DNA from: Malus domestica
Taxonomy: Eukaryota > Streptophyta > Magnoliopsida > Rosales > Rosaceae
Direction: 5' to 3'
Assembly: GCF_042453785.1 (NCBI RefSeq)
Contig: NC_091673.1
Span: forward strand, 2,611,501 to 2,675,500
DNA: 64,000 nucleotides
Shown here: positions 45,092-64,000 of the stretch, one piece after another
How positions within the stretch are numbered: position 1 is the first letter of the stretch
Layout of the letters: each line of letters begins with the position of its first letter
Made by a program: the position numbers and the translations under genes
Notes under the pieces: model-generated
Told to the model about the DNA's origin: nothing
What the model saw: only the letters and a program-made list of their open reading frames with translations
Database searches by the model: none

Positions 45092-45601
45092 TCATCTGGC
45101 AGGCACGGGAAAAGCAGATCCTGCAAAGGATGCTTTCTTGACAAACCTCCCTTTCATTCTTGGTCTCTTCTCGGCATTCAGCTTTCGAACTTCGTACCTT
45201 ATTTTCTTCGAGAACAGCCTTGTCCTCCTCTTTTCTCTATATCTCGACACCCTCGCCTCCCTCCCTCCGTCCGCCATTGCCGGGTGAATTCCAAGCCCGT
45301 TCATATCCCCATAAGGGTAATGAAGTTCAGCTCCACATGCACTCTGAGAAGGTCACAAACATATTTGTTAATTACTAAGAACTAATTATAATTTGGCACT
45401 AACTCTATCTGCTTACGAGTTAATTAAACAGATATCAATTGTTCTATTTATTGTATCCCTCCACAAATATAATCAATTATATTAATTGATTTATTTATCA
45501 ATTATTGAATTTTATTTTATTTTTTTGAACAAAAGGTCAATTATCGAATTTGAACATAAAATTTCTTTCACTTATATATGAGATTTGAACTGAAATTGAA
45601 C

Positions 45602-45650
<49 letters not shown>

Positions 45651-46824
45651 ATATGACTTGTACTTTACACGAAAGGAAAAGTATTGAAGATTTAGGGCAG
45701 TAAGTACAAACCATGTAGTCAGGCAAGCATTCGGAGTCGAAATCCGGGCGGTCACCGGAGGTCCACGGGGAGCCATCCCAGGCTGTAATTACCGCCTCGT
45801 AATCCAGCCTCAAAATCATCTTCCTCTTCTTGCTGTTATCTGTTGCATCGTCGTCAGCCTCCTCACGTTCATGATCTTCTGTACTACAATTACTATAGAT
45901 TCCCACTCTCAGTTTGTCATCCTGCTCACCGCACGATGCTGGCGAGTCATCGTAATCTTCAATATTCAATGCAAACGGCTCCCTCATCATGTCAATCTCA
46001 CTCTCCCCTAATTGGCACCCCATAAAATCAACGTTGTCTGTTCCCTCTTGATCATCATCCTCCTCAAGCTTCACTCTACCATTCGATTCCTTTTTTTTAC
46101 AATCCATCAACCCTAACCTTTCCATCCCAAAACACTCGTCATCATCAAGGCCTCTCCCCAGCAAACTATCCACGTCAGCCGCGAACTCCGCAAGATCCAT
46201 GTCGCTCGGAGGCAGAAACGCATCGTGGCCGTTAAAATTCGGCAAAGACGAAACTGCTTTTGATTCGCTTCCGACATGATCAGAAACAGTAATAAGATTG
46301 GTAGCTTCATAATTAGGAACTGCATCTTCCTTAGAATTATCAGAGTTATTGCAAAGCTCCGCAACAAACGGATCGAATATCGGAACCCTATAAAGCAGCT
46401 GCTGGTCCTCTGTATTTTCTTCATCGTACGAGTTATTATCATCTCCCCCAACTTCCGGAACCTGCGGAAACAGGTTCCGGACGCCATCCTGGGATTTTCC
46501 ATGATGTGTCATGGACTTCCCGCCTCTCGGTGTCCGTGCCTTCCGCGTGAACCCGCGGTGCCAAGACGGTGCCGCTGAGGTCTCCGAAACAGCGCTCGCT
46601 CGATCATCTTTGTTGCTAGGTTTGAGCGACGACGCCGTCTTCAAGAGAACTCTTTTGTGCCGATGGGCCAACTGGTTGGCTGAGTGCACGGCGGAGTCGC
46701 AGGCTTGGCATAAGAAAGCGTCGTCGGCAGCGCAGTACCAACGAGCTCTCTTTTTTATGCAGCTGTCACACGCTCGGGCAGTTTTACCGCCGACGGCGTT
46801 TGCCACTTTCTTGCTAGAATTCAT
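45092..46824 (-). CDS. CONSTANS-like protein with one B-box and a CCT domain (COL6/COL16 type)
   Basis: Exon 1 is 46824-45712 and exon 2 is 45343-45092, joined in phase 0 (CLPDYM/SACGAEL) to 454 residues. Near residues 14-61 is one B-box zinc finger: [20 protein letters not shown], then [20 protein letters not shown] and HRHKRVLL. The middle is acidic. At 399-441 is the CCT domain: [20 protein letters not shown], then [20 protein letters not shown]. One B-box plus CCT places it with BBX14-17 (COL6/7/8/16), nuclear regulators of light, flowering and pigment responses. The CCT domain contacts DNA with NF-YB/YC. The start [14 protein letters not shown] aligns with relatives; an in-frame ATG 36 codons upstream lies next to the TATA box and is probably not used. 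The intron contains an (AT)n run of ~44 bases at 45605-45648. Confidence 0.93.
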
Positions 46825-46932
46825 CAAAGAAAACAAAATTCGACACAAAATTTGAAATCCCAAAAGCTTTTTCTGAGAGAGTACAGTTAAATAGTGCGAA
46901 TTCGAGAGTAGCAACTGTCTGCTAAAATGCAC

Positions 46933-59126: not shown

Positions 59127-60617
59127 TTAGAGCTTGACCACCTCAGGGATATGAACCGGGTAATTATCGATGCAATCAGCCCAGGGCCCATCTGACGTTG
59201 TTGTGATGGTCCGATTGCACTTCCAGACCGCGCTGTTGCACTTAAACCCGCTCCCGAATGCAATCTGCCAAACCCTATCACCTTTTTTCATCCTACCCTT
59301 CGCCTCGATGTACCCCAACTCGTACCACAGTGACGACGACGACGTATTGCCGAACCTGTGCAGTGTCATCCTCGACGCCTCGCAGTGCTCCGCCGACAGC
59401 TGTAAATTCTTCTGCAGCTCGTCGATCACCGCCCTTCCGCCCGCGTGGATGCAGAAGTGCTCGAACGCCTCTCGGAAATCAGGAATGTAGGGCTTCCATT
59501 TCGGGTTCAAGATTTTCCGGCCGATGAGCGTGAAGAGAAACAGCAACTGCTCCGACGCCGGCAGCACTAGCGGGCCGATCGTCGTGATGTTCGATTTCAG
59601 CGCTTCCCCCGCAATCGCCATCAGATCTTTAGAGAGTGAAATTCCAACGTTGCCTTCCTTGTCTTCTTCCTCGAACACGCACCTATACGCCTTGTCATCT
59701 GCTCCCTTGTGTGTCCTTACTACGTGGACCAATCGGTATTTTGCGCGGCGGTGCTCGGACCTCCTGTTTGATAAAAGCAAGGCGGCGCCGCCCATCCGGA
59801 AGAGGCAGTTAGGGAGGAGCATCGCCCTCTCGTTGCCTTGGTAATAGTTCGGGGTGATGATCTCGGTGCTGACGACCACCGCGTTGGAATTGGGATGCAC
59901 CTGGAGGAGGTCGCGCGCCAAATCGATTGAAATGAGGCCGGCGCTGCAGCCCATGCCGGAGAGGTTGAAGCTCTTGATGTTGCTTCGGAGCTTGTACTTG
60001 TTGATCACCATCGCCGAGAGCGACGGCGTCGGCGAGAAGAGGCTACAGTTAACAATGAGAATATCGATGTCTTTGGGCTTGAGCCCAGTCTTCTCGAACA
60101 GAGAGTCCATGGCGGAGAAGATGACGAGCTCCGCCTCGCCCCTAGCGGCCTCCATGGTGGGGTTGGGCGGAATATAGTGAATCGCCGGAGGGAGGCAGGT
60201 CTCCTCCCCGAGGCCCGAGCGCTCGAGGATCCTCATCTGGAACTCGACGCTCTTGGGGTTGTTGCTGAGGTTGAGGCGGGAGTGCTCCATGAAGGTGGAG
60301 AAGGGGACGCGGCAGGTGACTGGAGGCTTGAAACAGGCGTAGTCGACGAGGTAGATGGAGCGGGGTTTGGACATAAAGTAGACGGTGGCGATGAAGATGA
60401 TGAGGAATGAGGAGCAGAGGATTTGGACGAGATCGAAGTGAAGTGAGTCCCAGAGCTTGAGAAGCTCGTCGGGGCCGAGGCGGATGACCTCCAGTAGGAT
60501 TCCGGCCATGATGAGGATGAGAGTGAGGGTAAGAATGTGGTTGACGAGGTACTGGTAGCCGAGCTTGACATACTTGAGCTTGACGGAGTTGGAGAAGTCC
60601 TGCATGATTGGAGGCAT
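59127..60617 (-). CDS. 3-ketoacyl-CoA synthase (KCS4/9/17-like), 496 aa, intronless
   Basis: KCS condenses malonyl-CoA with a long acyl-CoA, the rate-limiting step of very-long-chain fatty acid elongation for waxes, cutin/suberin and sphingolipids, in the ER membrane. Two N-terminal membrane segments (~26-45 and ~62-81) precede the FAE1/CUT1-type condensing domain. The catalytic triad is visible: Cys224 in GMGCSAG, His391 in FCIHAGGRAV, Asn424 in RFGNTSSSS. Other conserved histidines are His303 (VRTHKGADD), His387 and His420. VKLKYVKLGYQYLVNH and LVHVVRTHKGADDKA resemble KCS4/9/17 more than KCS11, by memory. Full length and a single exon are normal for this clade. The start MPPIMQDFSNSV precedes the conserved VKLKYVKLGY by the expected distance. 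The long ORFs on the opposite strand are shadows of its GC-rich coding sequence. Confidence 0.95.
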   Translation of the reverse strand: MPPIMQDFSNSVKLKYVKLGYQYLVNHILTLTLILIMAGILLEVIRLGPDELLKLWDSLHFDLVQILCSSFLIIFIATVYFMSKPRSIYLVDYACFKPPVTCRVPFSTFMEHSRLNLSNNPKSVEFQMRILERSGLGEETCLPPAIHYIPPNPTMEAARGEAELVIFSAMDSLFEKTGLKPKDIDILIVNCSLFSPTPSLSAMVINKYKLRSNIKSFNLSGMGCSAGLISIDLARDLLQVHPNSNAVVVSTEIITPNYYQGNERAMLLPNCLFRMGGAALLLSNRRSEHRRAKYRLVHVVRTHKGADDKAYRCVFEEEDKEGNVGISLSKDLMAIAGEALKSNITTIGPLVLPASEQLLFLFTLIGRKILNPKWKPYIPDFREAFEHFCIHAGGRAVIDELQKNLQLSAEHCEASRMTLHRFGNTSSSSLWYELGYIEAKGRMKKGDRVWQIAFGSGFKCNSAVWKCNRTITTTSDGPWADCIDNYPVHIPEVVKL

Positions 60618-60724: not shown

Positions 60725-62391
60725 GGGACCGGGGCAATGAAGGTGGCAGATGAGGGGATTAAATGGGGAACTTCACGTCACTCAACGCTCACTTATCCTT
60801 GGTATTAATTATATTTTTCGCATACATTTCTTTTCCACGTGTAACTAAATCCATGCCCTAACATACATAGCTATAGCTACATCCAGTTTTGGGCTTTAAA
60901 ACTTTACATGCATATCTTTATTTTTTGGTTCCACTAGTCATGATTCATGAGCTTCCCCTCCTGTAATTTGTCAAACATTAACAAGTCAGATAATGTTAGA
61001 GAGATGGATATATAATTGTATTTTGTGAATTCTCTTTTTAAGAGAAAAAAGAGCAGAGGTGTCCAACTATATTATTGTATGACTCGTTTCATAATAGCTT
61101 GAGACCCTTTGCGTTTTAGTTACAATCGGCCTCATGCTATTTTCACTTAGGGGTGTGATATCCACACACATTTTTTTACTTCTCTCACACCTTTTTGGTT
61201 TTTGGCCGTCGGATCGGAAGAATTAAAGAAGATCAACGAACAGAAATTAACAAGGGGTGTGTGAGAAGTAAAAAGGGGTGTGTGGATATCACACCCTTTT
61301 CACTTATTATGAGAATTGTTCTAAATGCGTTACCAAATATATTTTATTTGAAACTAAATAATTAGTTTCATATGTGCGATCTTTATAACCTAATTTATCA
61401 ATGCGATCATACAAAACAAAAAGAGAGAAATTTTTTGTTGTGTCATATTAAGGGGTGGTTTAGGTATACAAACTAAACAGAATTTAATTTGATGTGTATT
61501 CTCAACTACATGACGATGATGTTATGAATTTGACTTCAAACCATATGCCTAAAAGTATATATAAAATTCGGAAAAAAAATTGAAAATAAAGTCAACTTGA
61601 GTCAGCCATTATAGTTAGGGAAATTAATTTCCAGTTCCTAATTAATGGTTGTTAGTTGTTATTTACTTGAATTGAAAAACAATTTTAGAAGGAATAAAAG
61701 ACCTACAGGAAATGAGAAGGAGATTCACAAAAGTGAGATTTTTTATAGATTATCTATCACCTCATGTTTTTTACGGAATGTTTTATAATGTTGACAAAAA
61801 GTTCATGAATAGTCATACTTTGAGAGAGTTTACTTAATACTTCTCAAGTCTTATATTATAATTTTTTTTGTCAACCAATCGGATAAAAGTATATTTTATT
61901 TATTTCTCCTCCATTTTCCCTCTTTGGAAGGGTACATTAAACCTTTCTTGAAATTTGTCATGGTCATGGACGGAGCCAATGAAGGCTCAGTGGGGGCAGA
62001 TACCCCCACTTAAGTGATTCGTTTGTTTAGTTGCAAACTATAATTATATAATATACACGGATTATCTTTGAAGAAAATATATGTATCTAATATCTAACAT
62101 ACATTCATTCTACTTATACTCCATATCAAATATTATATGAGCAATAGTGCTCTTGTTCTGTCATTCAAACCGAAAAAACCCTCTCCCGCCTATCATGTAT
62201 TTATATTTTTCTCATTAATTTGCCACTTTCCACTACTATATTGAAATTTTTGTAACATTGGAATTGTGATATATCATCATTTGAAACCATCTTTAATATC
62301 ATTGTAGACATTGAAATTTCGGTAAATAAATGTTGAACGATAAATCAAAGTTTCAACGCTCATGTATTACATAAATTTTACACGTAACGTG
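60725..62391. other. KCS promoter side and spacer up to the retrotransposon
   Basis: No gene was seen. It includes the KCS upstream region, the MITE at 61150-61296, and at 61971-62020 a GGACGGAGCC-type repeat end followed by a GTGGGGGCAGATACCCCCAC hairpin. Confidence 0.5.
61150..61296. mobile_element. Mutator-like MITE (GGGTGTGATATCC family), copy 2, with 9-10 bp target duplication
   Basis: GGGGTGTGATATCCACACAC and GTGTGTGGATATCACACCC are near-perfect inverted repeats. TTTTCACTTA flanks it exactly at 61140-61149 and 61297-61306. 147 bp. A degenerate relative with its own duplication lies at 14310-14455. Confidence 0.9.
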
Positions 62392-63249
62392 TGTCTAAAC
62401 AAAAAATCGAAATAAGTTGGAAAAGTCATCAAACAGGACACGTGTCAACACCTGGCAGAAACGACTTATTTTATCTGGAATATTATATTCAAAATTAGGC
62501 CTTGAAAAATTCTATAAATAGAAGGCTAATTCATTCATTTAAGGGGGGAATTCATATTACACCTTGAAGCTCTGAAGCTCTGAAACTCCGAAGCTCTCAA
62601 GCAAATCCCGAAGGATCAAGAAAACCCCTTTTCGTTCTTCATCAAATCCTCCTTCAAGATCAAGCCCCGACGGCCCTTGAAGAAAGTGTTCTTCGTTCTT
62701 CGTTCTTCGTTCATCATTCTTCCAAGATCAAGCCCCGACGGCCCCTTGGACCAACAGTCATCCACCTTCAAGATCAAGCCCCGACGGCCCCTTGAAGAAC
62801 TTCCACCAAATTCAAGATCAAGCCCCGACGGCCCTTGAAGAAAGTGTTTTTCGTTCATCGTTCATCGTTTTTCTAAGATCAAGCCCCGACGACCCCTTAG
62901 ATCAACAACATCAACAAATCCACACGTCCAACCGTTCTTCAAGATCAAGCCCAAAAGCCCTTGGAGATCCATTCATCACTGTTCTTCAAAGATCAAGCCC
63001 AAAAGCCCCTTTGAAGATCCGCTCAAATCCACCTTCAAGATCAAGTCCACGGCCTTTGAAGAACGTTCATCCTTAGATCAAGCCCAACGGCCCTTTGGAT
63101 CAATCGCACATCCACAAATCAACATCTTACGGAGATTGAATCAGAGGATCAAATTTGAGAGAGATTGTAACCCAAAATCATCAAATACAAATATTTGTTT
63201 GTGCACGTTGTTCTTGTCTCTTTCGTTTCAGGAATTTTCTGTGTTCACA
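62392..63249 (+). mobile_element. 5' LTR of a retrotransposon (likely Ty3/gypsy) with hairpin array in the transcribed leader
   Basis: The right edge is good: ...TGTGTTCACA, then AATTGGCACGCCCAGTGGGA, a primer-site/leader motif I associate with plant gypsy elements. A TATA-like TTCTATAAATAGAAGG lies at about 62508-62523, so transcription should start near 62540. The left edge (TGTCTAAACA at 62392) is a guess, since the partner LTR is outside the window. Between TATA and primer site lie nine repeats of a ~30-base hairpin unit (62652-63110). Confidence 0.65.
62652..63110 (+). repeat. Array of nine hairpin units with varying, still-paired stems
   Basis: Units begin near 62652, 62721, 62766, 62811, 62872, 62938, 62984, 63032 and 63070. 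The constant part is ATCAAGCCCCGACGGCCC or the variant ATCAAGCCCAAAAGCCC. It is flanked by short arms that pair: CTTCAAG/CTTGAAG (units 1, 3), TCCAAG/CTTGGA (2), TTCAAG/CTTGAA (4), TCTAAG/CTTAGA (5), TTCAAG/CTTGGA with one G-U (6), CTTCAAAG/CTTTGAAG (7), CTTCAA/TTGAAG (8). Unit 9 pairs only as ATCC/GGAT with mismatches. Spacers include TTCGTTCTTCGTTCATC-type repeats. Confidence 0.85.
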
Positions 63250-63328
63250 AATTGGCACGCCCAGTGGGACTGTCTCTACCTCTCATCTCTTCCTCCGTTC
63301 AAGAAATATAAGCACACTTCCAAAATCA

Positions 63329-64000
63329 ATGACATCAAGGAAGGCTCAAGCTGTTCCCATAACCGGCGCAAAGAACAAAGGCGCCCTCGCCGCAAGTGGT
63401 GTCACTTTGGGCATCACGACTCGAAGCAAAGCAAAAGCTACTTCTGCCACCTCTTTCACCTCTGCATCAACTCTGCCAAGGGAACGAGAGTACCCAAGGC
63501 ACGAGCCTGTGATCACCTTAGCCTCACTAAGGGCACCAAGGGGGGAAAGACCAAGGGAATACTCCGAATCCATGCTCTCCGATGCCGATTCAAGGGGCAG
63601 TTCAGCCATGCAAGTCATGACCACTGGAGCAACTTCAATCGATGAACAGCTTGCTCAAATGAATGAAGCAATCACAAGGCTAACTCGAACTGTGGAAGAA
63701 AAAGACTTGCAAATCGCAGCATTAGTCAACCGACTGGAGGCGCAGGACAGCGAGAAACCCGACCCAGAAGATGATCCACTAAAGGGAGGAGCTGGCGGAG
63801 ACGAAGAACCTCCGGTGAAGAAAATCGATGGAAAGCCGAAACCAGACCAAGCAGCGGCGCTCATGGGATCTCTCTCTATCCAGCAGCTGCAGGAGATGAT
63901 CACCAACACCATCAAGGCACGGTACGAAGGGAGCTCTCATGCCTCCACGTTGTACTCAAAGCCTTACTCCAGGAAGATCGACGCCTTAAGGATGCCGAGG
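63329..64000 (+). CDS. Ty3/gypsy-type gag, N-terminal part, runs off the window edge
   Basis: An open frame from ATG at 63329 continues through 224 codons to the window end without a stop. It starts MTSRKAQAVPITGAKNKGAL, then ITTRSKAKATSATSFTSAST, a charged stretch with PREREYPRHEP, a coiled-coil-like SIDEQLAQMNEAITRLTRTV, an acidic linker (DPEDDPLKGGAGGDEEPP) and QQLQEMITNTIKARYEG leading to YSKPYSRKIDALRMPR. This is the usual N-terminal region of plant gypsy gag-pol polyproteins; the capsid domain would follow outside. The frame is undamaged, so the element may be young. The ATG is 80 bases past the presumed LTR edge, a normal leader length. The ORFs at 63136-63645 (other frame) and on the minus strand are shadows. 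Confidence 0.85.
   Translation, partial: MTSRKAQAVPITGAKNKGALAASGVTLGITTRSKAKATSATSFTSASTLPREREYPRHEPVITLASLRAPRGERPREYSESMLSDADSRGSSAMQVMTTGATSIDEQLAQMNEAITRLTRTVEEKDLQIAALVNRLEAQDSEKPDPEDDPLKGGAGGDEEPPVKKIDGKPKPDQAAALMGSLSIQQLQEMITNTIKARYEGSSHASTLYSKPYSRKIDALRMPR

Follow-up and report, generated by a model that had tools for sequence, protein, structure and literature searches.

Hairpin arrays in the nearly AUG-free leaders of apple Ty3/gypsy elements: arms matched beyond chance, base-by-base compensation not shown

Introduction

Two RNase H domains are the mark of the Tat clade (Retand, Ogre and kin). To our knowledge, little has been established about RNA signals that act in cis in the Ty3/gypsy elements of plants. 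The apple element studied here shares with the Tat clade its coding domains (PR, RT, RNase H plus RVT_3, and integrase) and a long stretch from pol to the 3' LTR that holds an antisense ORF and repeats; it differs in that its array is also located in the LTR leader. For Retand, PMC11963269 describes frequent tandem repeats of unknown function between pol and the 3' LTR.

Stem-loops in the 5' leader, upstream of gag, are also found in retroviral psi leaders and in the packaging and dimerisation signals of Ty1 and BARE, and in BARE such signals are retained in a partner that lacks its own Gag. The present array differs in that one small unit recurs 6-18 times. Nor did the scanned pieces of gag/pol show a CCHC zinc knuckle, and a reader of nucleocapsid type is therefore not evident. 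The ribosome-shunt leaders of pararetroviruses are likewise long leaders of plant retroelements; according to PMC5902531, they carry several upstream ORFs, whereas the array leader is AUG-free, which indicates plain scanning. Among the top matches in open-access papers, hairpin arrays in LTR leaders were not found; absence from print is not claimed.

A high-copy repeat of apple and pear, HODOR, is given as 9.2 kb in PMC6901071 and as 9,716 bp in PMC13334179. Most of the short relatives described below are of this size and, like HODOR, numerous. Likened by size class, the short relatives probably go by the name of HODOR (sequence record KX869746).

Results

The host element

The window, i.e. 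the whole 64,000-nt stretch of Malus domestica DNA that was analyzed, contains the 5' LTR and the beginning of the coding region of a Ty3/gypsy element with two RNase H domains (Table 1). The element has the features of an LTR retrotransposon: TG..CA ends, a 5-bp target duplication, a putative primer-binding site (PBS), and a purine tract, AGTGGGGGCATT, ahead of the 3' LTR. Its two LTRs have diverged by 2.0%; with the rate used in PMC6445120 (1.3e-8 per site and year), this corresponds to ~0.8 My. Transcription probably starts at ~62545, judging from the TATA box.

Table 1. Features of the element and its hairpin array, in window coordinates
Feature	Positions	Strand	Basis
Target-site duplication ATCAT	62298..62302	+	identical five bases after 3' LTR (locus L002)
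5' LTR, TGTAGA...TTCACA	62303..63249	+	pairwise match to own 3' LTR, 17 kb downstream
TATA box TATAAATA	62513..62520	+	sequence match
Inferred 5' leader, AUG-free	62545..63328	+	first ATG, 63329, opens gag-like frame
Degenerate unit 0: CGAAGG / ATCAAG... / CTTTTCG	62609..62634	+	sequence, folding
Unit 1: CTTCAAG / loop / CTTGAAG	62652..62682	+	sequence, folding
Unit 2: TCCAAG / loop / CTTGGA	62721..62750	+	sequence, folding
Unit 3: CTTCAAG / loop / CTTGAAG	62766..62797	+	sequence, folding
Unit 4: TTCAAG / loop / CTTGAA	62811..62839	+	sequence, folding
Unit 5: TCTAAG / loop / CTTAGA; 3' arm change post-insertion	62872..62901	+	sequence, own 3' LTR
Unit 6: TCTTCAAG / loop ATCAAGCCCAAAAGCC / CTTGGAGA, one G-U	62936..62967	+	sequence, folding
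Unit 7: CTTCAAAG / loop / CTTTGAAG	62984..63016	+	sequence, folding
Unit 8: CTTCAAG / short loop / CTTTGAAG, bulge	63033..63061	+	sequence, folding
Unit 9: ATCCTTAG / loop / CTTTGGAT, 4 + 2 bp around UU/UU loop	63069..63100	+	sequence, folding
Putative primer-binding site TGGCACGCCCAGTGGGAC	63253..63270	+	assigned from position
Gag-like frame, start	63329..64000	+	open reading frame from first ATG

In the interior pieces of the element, the domain order was protease, RT, RNase H, second RNase H, integrase (RVT_1, RT_RNaseH, RVT_3, rve for the last four). The protease match was weak and fell under the curated cut-off; the second RNase H was matched by RVT_3 with E 9.9e-19. With RT-RNase H before integrase and a second RNase H present, the element is Tat-like Ty3/gypsy as judged by its domains. 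The portion of the gag-like frame within the window had no Pfam match. An antisense ORF with a plant mobile domain (PMD; L092:3321-4499, minus strand) lies between pol and the 3' LTR. At this place, Retand elements have an antisense TRP28 ORF (PF04195); no TRP28 was seen in the ORFs scanned, and the stretch C13:2684501-2687199 was outside the scan. The rve ORF (L092) ends ~8.6 kb before the 3' LTR (L002), a distance that may include a nested insertion and is longer than the 2.9-6.6 kb given for the pol-to-3' LTR region of Retand in PMC11963269. Across the whole window, no Rfam match reached the gathering score and no tRNA genes were found; a plasmid collection gave no match.

The hairpin array

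The nine hairpin units described in an earlier note on this DNA are present at 62652-63100 with the arms that it quoted, and the array is located where it had been placed, in the LTR leader between the TATA box (62513) and the primer site (63253). Stems in the nine units are 5-9 bp and loops 14-18 nt. The loop had been called near-constant, which is correct for its beginning: ATCAAG opens all nine loops, but the exact sequence ATCAAGCCCCGACGGCC is limited to units 1-4. Unit 5 has this loop with one base changed, and units 6-9 have different second halves. Pairing had been said to be kept in eight of the nine units; it is continuous in seven, unit 8 being bulged and unit 9 interrupted. A degenerate tenth unit (unit 0) precedes the nine and has equivalents in other copies; in the window, it folds no better than shuffled sequences.

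Single-unit folding energies ranged from -3.5 to -10.2 kcal/mol. When the ten stretches were folded singly, units 1, 3, and 7 had z < -2.5, and the other seven had values from +0.1 to -1.8. Folding of the leader, which had been proposed as a check, did not bear out an exceptional structure: compared to shuffles, z was -0.87 for the whole leader and -1.42 for the whole array. Being no better than shuffles, whole-leader folding was rejected as evidence for structure.

Some smaller features of the array were recorded. A heptamer, GTTCTTC, is repeated between units 1 and 2 (window 62688-62722), and the paired LTR has 7 nt more between units 1 and 2 and 7 nt more between units 4 and 5. GACG tetraloops are a feature of gammaretroviral packaging loops; a likeness to them was considered and dropped, many loops elsewhere reading AACG or AAAAG.

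Copies in the genome

The genome searched comprised 651 Mb in 19 contigs. With up to 3 mismatches allowed, the loop pattern occurred 9,314 + 8,516 times (~17,830), and the reversed control pattern occurred 0 times. Elements of ~17 kb carry the motif, as do relatives of ~9 kb. In 32 insertions for which both LTRs were read, the number of units per LTR was 6-18 and the insertions spanned 6.6 to 28 kb; 18 of the 32 were below 11.5 kb, and 17 of these 18 measured 8.4-10.1 kb. A gag match was obtained in all three short elements examined (one just below the Pfam cut-off), and no pol domain was found in eight ORFs scanned from three short elements. Comparable units also occur ahead of LTRs, where they belong to the 3' part of elements (e.g. 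L032:24-480 and L093).

Two loci of the survey call for separate mention. In a ~8.4 kb element for which gag but no pol was detected, L094:1969-2859 (C1) gave a strong match to a papain-type cysteine protease and a match to an RNA polymerase Rpb3/Rpb11 domain; this stretch apparently consists of captured host gene pieces. L053 and L054 are LTR-like, 15.5 kb apart, and identical across 1,434 nt, which exceeds the usual LTR length and reflects either a duplication or an assembly effect. Because the match extends past the LTR, these two were left out of the insertion-status, triplet, constraint, arm-type, and upstream-unit comparisons; they were retained in the AUG density of 61 LTRs.

AUG triplets in the leader

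From ~62540 to gag at 63329, the leader in the window contains 0 AUG, with 6.2 expected in its LTR part alone. For 61 LTRs with a TATA match, AUG density in the leader was 1.6 per kb, with shuffles at 9.6 and U3 at 14.4. LTR pairs separate triplets present at transposition (shared) from those that arose later (unshared). Within the arrays of 31 insertions, AUG was found 0 times in both LTRs and 17 times in one LTR only; the corresponding counts for CAT, which is the AUG triplet of the opposite strand and served as the control, were 319 and 49. Thus array AUGs arise readily, chiefly from the loop ACGG, and 0 copies read had an array AUG at transposition.

The same pattern extends to the 29 inferred leaders, in which 9 AUGs were shared and 38 unshared, against 21,707 and 2,392 for all triplets; the ratio for AUG was the lowest of all. 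Four of the nine shared AUGs are probably in U3, three lie just past the inferred start of two elements, and two represent one U5 AUG of two elements. The shared ATGs of L005, L028, and L065, probably in U3 given a TATA match far upstream, were counted anyway, which weighs against the purge. Unit-bearing regions upstream of LTRs had 5.8 AUG per kb compared to 0.58 in LTR arrays. Loops with AUG numbered 15 of 180 in the former and 13 of 639 in the latter, and each of those 13 was present in one LTR only.

Leaders of transposed copies are all but AUG-free, as would be expected if ribosomes scan from the cap to gag. The firmest functional statement that the sequences support is, then, that the arrayed leader is probably scanned towards gag, in long and short elements alike.

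Matching of the arms

For the window, all 362,880 re-pairings of the nine 3' arms with the nine 5' arms were evaluated, and 240 of them equaled or bettered the observed total duplex energy. In 32 related insertions (one LTR each, 2,000 permutations each), the fit of own arms had p <= 0.05 in 30 and p <= 0.01 in 18; these insertions are kin, and their p values are not independent. Of 242 swaps of arms between neighbors, 192 cost energy, 12 were neutral, and 38 gained. The matching of arms between units beyond chance is real.

Each of the four commonest non-overlapping arm types pairs. When arms were permuted among types, 9, 3, 7, and 10 of 5,000 permutations were equally good in uncleaned sets, as were 28, 189, and 453 of 10,000 in cleaned sets of 8, 5, and 4 types, respectively. 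This permutation is supportive of arm matching, but not decisive.

Compensatory change

The earlier note had ascribed the covarying arms to selection on structure. The complementarity between units stood, as described above; compensation in place was not upheld. Against a tree null (894 distinct short units from 90 loci of one genome, a rough tree, and 100 simulations of independent columns), no stem pair covaried in excess (z from -1.1 to 1.3, the best being 1.3). The earlier note had listed such a result among those that would refute its claim. The 25 strongest column pairs all fell within a single arm or within the loop, which indicates blocks inherited together. Mean pairing over pairs 1-8 was 0.77, above all 100 tree simulations (maximum 0.67).

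Contrasts between like-flanked units with changes in both arms numbered 75 (those with >2 changes per arm or >3 per flank were left out), and only one was a mirrored, pair-keeping change. The final step of this contrast is the window's own post-insertion mutation. It concerns TCTAAG/CTTAGA, one of the examples put forward for compensation: the element's own 3' LTR and its nearest relative, L024, carry TCTAAG/CTTGGA, so CTTAGA arose by a G-to-A step after insertion. Among 47 arm differences within insertions, 6 affect both arms, and none of these is mirrored with the pair kept.

Broken forms were common at insertion; in distinct contexts, there were 21 G-U, 19 A-C, and 36 other mismatches. The G-U:A-C ratio was 54:36 at insertion compared to 8:6 afterwards (p = 1.0). 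On tree branches, changes from Watson-Crick to G-U and to A-C stood at 35.0:34.4 on internal and 30.0:41.0 on terminal branches. A preference for G-U over A-C, which had been considered as a sign of selection on sense-strand RNA, was rejected on account of this parity. Crude counts at pair 5 (T-G 90, C-A 11) are misleading because a few lineages are counted many times.

One double change is clean, from A-U to G-C: TTCGAG/CTCGAA in L075 and L076 shares its array with TTCAAG/CTTGAA units that have an equal 5' flank. It occurs 87 times genome-wide; by a count made by eye, ~76 of these form couples on one strand, spaced 6.7-17 kb as LTR pairs would be. Its G-U form occurs 59 times genome-wide, with some of the loops outside the hairpin family, and adjoins the double form in four insertions. 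The case for compensation rests on this change and on a few unit types with differing matched arms. Base-by-base compensatory selection on the stems is not shown; the arm matching resides in a few unit types that spread as blocks.

Sequence constraint

Constraint was gauged in 13 disjoint element pairs, outside CpG, by comparing fixed differences between elements with post-insertion LTR-LTR changes, the latter taken as neutral. The between/within ratio was 1.56 (p 0.09) and 1.22 (p 0.004) for the two loop halves and 1.46 (p 0.01) for U5. It was 2.52 for U3, 2.47 for the array spacers, and 3.65 and 2.77 for the arms. Within this modest sample, the ratios show apparent purifying selection on the loop (AUCAAGCCC..GGCC) and on U5, with arm sequence free. 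ACGG is one step from AUGG, so the loop constraint may in part be avoidance of AUG. Freedom of the arms would fit a stem with interchangeable bases; exchange of units would also inflate arm differences.

Discussion

The array is tentatively read as part of a leader that ribosomes scan and that carries redundant hairpins for RNA recognition, most likely by proteins of the element that recognize its genomic RNA. Ribosomes would pass through the hairpins while scanning the roughly 600-1,300 nt that separate the cap from gag, and every unit would form a weak hairpin whose conserved loop is offered to a partner, either protein or RNA. With 6-18 sites per array, loss of a single site would be tolerated. 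New arm types would be rare, and unequal exchange or template switching would account for their spread more than in-place repair. Our best guess is that genomic RNA would be selected or packaged by the element's own proteins via these hairpins. Recognition or packaging is favored because the array is common to pol-bearing and pol-less elements and because similar units occur in the 3' part, which is not scanned. In a more specific form, the hairpins would be a multivalent tag made up of 6-18 hairpins, nearly identical to one another, in a leader purged of AUG, together with the 3' units; packaging or selection would be shared with abundant pol-less partners, and selection would act on whole unit types. 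This form is conceivable and on the unlikely side.

Several observations are also what a tolerated tandem repeat would produce. An old inverted-repeat unit would have grown in number within R/U5 through unequal exchange and template switching, selection would act on the absence of AUG alone, and the hairpins would have no function. Arm conservation no higher than that of the spacers, broken pairs fixed between elements, a unit number ranging from 6 to 18, and block-like covariation confined within arms all agree with this, and Retand elements commonly hold tandem arrays without known function in their pol-to-3' LTR region (PMC11963269). Such a repeat would not be expected to have own arms that in 30 of 32 insertions beat those of neighbors at p <= 0.05, constrained loops, or pairing in each of the four commonest non-overlapping arm types, and this explanation is considered unlikely. 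It is improbable that the hairpins serve translation control, either by slowing or metering scanning or through Gag binding that switches the RNA from translation to packaging: they are weak, and comparable units stand upstream of the 3' LTR, where there is no scanning to gag. The AUG-free leader that runs directly up to gag, in long as well as short elements, would nevertheless suit that role, as would the Gag/5'-UTR switch reported for Idefix by the title of a work cited in PMC3735527. Quasi-palindrome correction, in which template switching within a hairpin at reverse transcription copies one arm to the other with no selection on structure, predicts matched blocks without G-U preference, as observed. 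It is the most improbable of these accounts: 0 of the 47 within-insertion arm differences are mirrored and pair-keeping (such corrections would precede insertion), and G-U forms persist in many insertions and adjoin GAG/CTC units in four.

The repeated leader hairpin is available in thousands of copies within a single genome, and LTR pairs date changes as pre- or post-insertion. The AUG purge constitutes strong sequence-only evidence for ribosome scanning of arrayed leaders, and the comparison of shared and unshared LTR positions can locate further functional leader elements. Should the hairpins prove to be a shared tag, the spread of the pol-less relatives would become easier to explain.

Elsewhere in the window, two ordinary plant genes were noted, both on the minus strand: a fatty-acid elongase-type gene (FAE1/CUT1) at 59127-60617 and a B-box zinc finger gene at 45568-46932.
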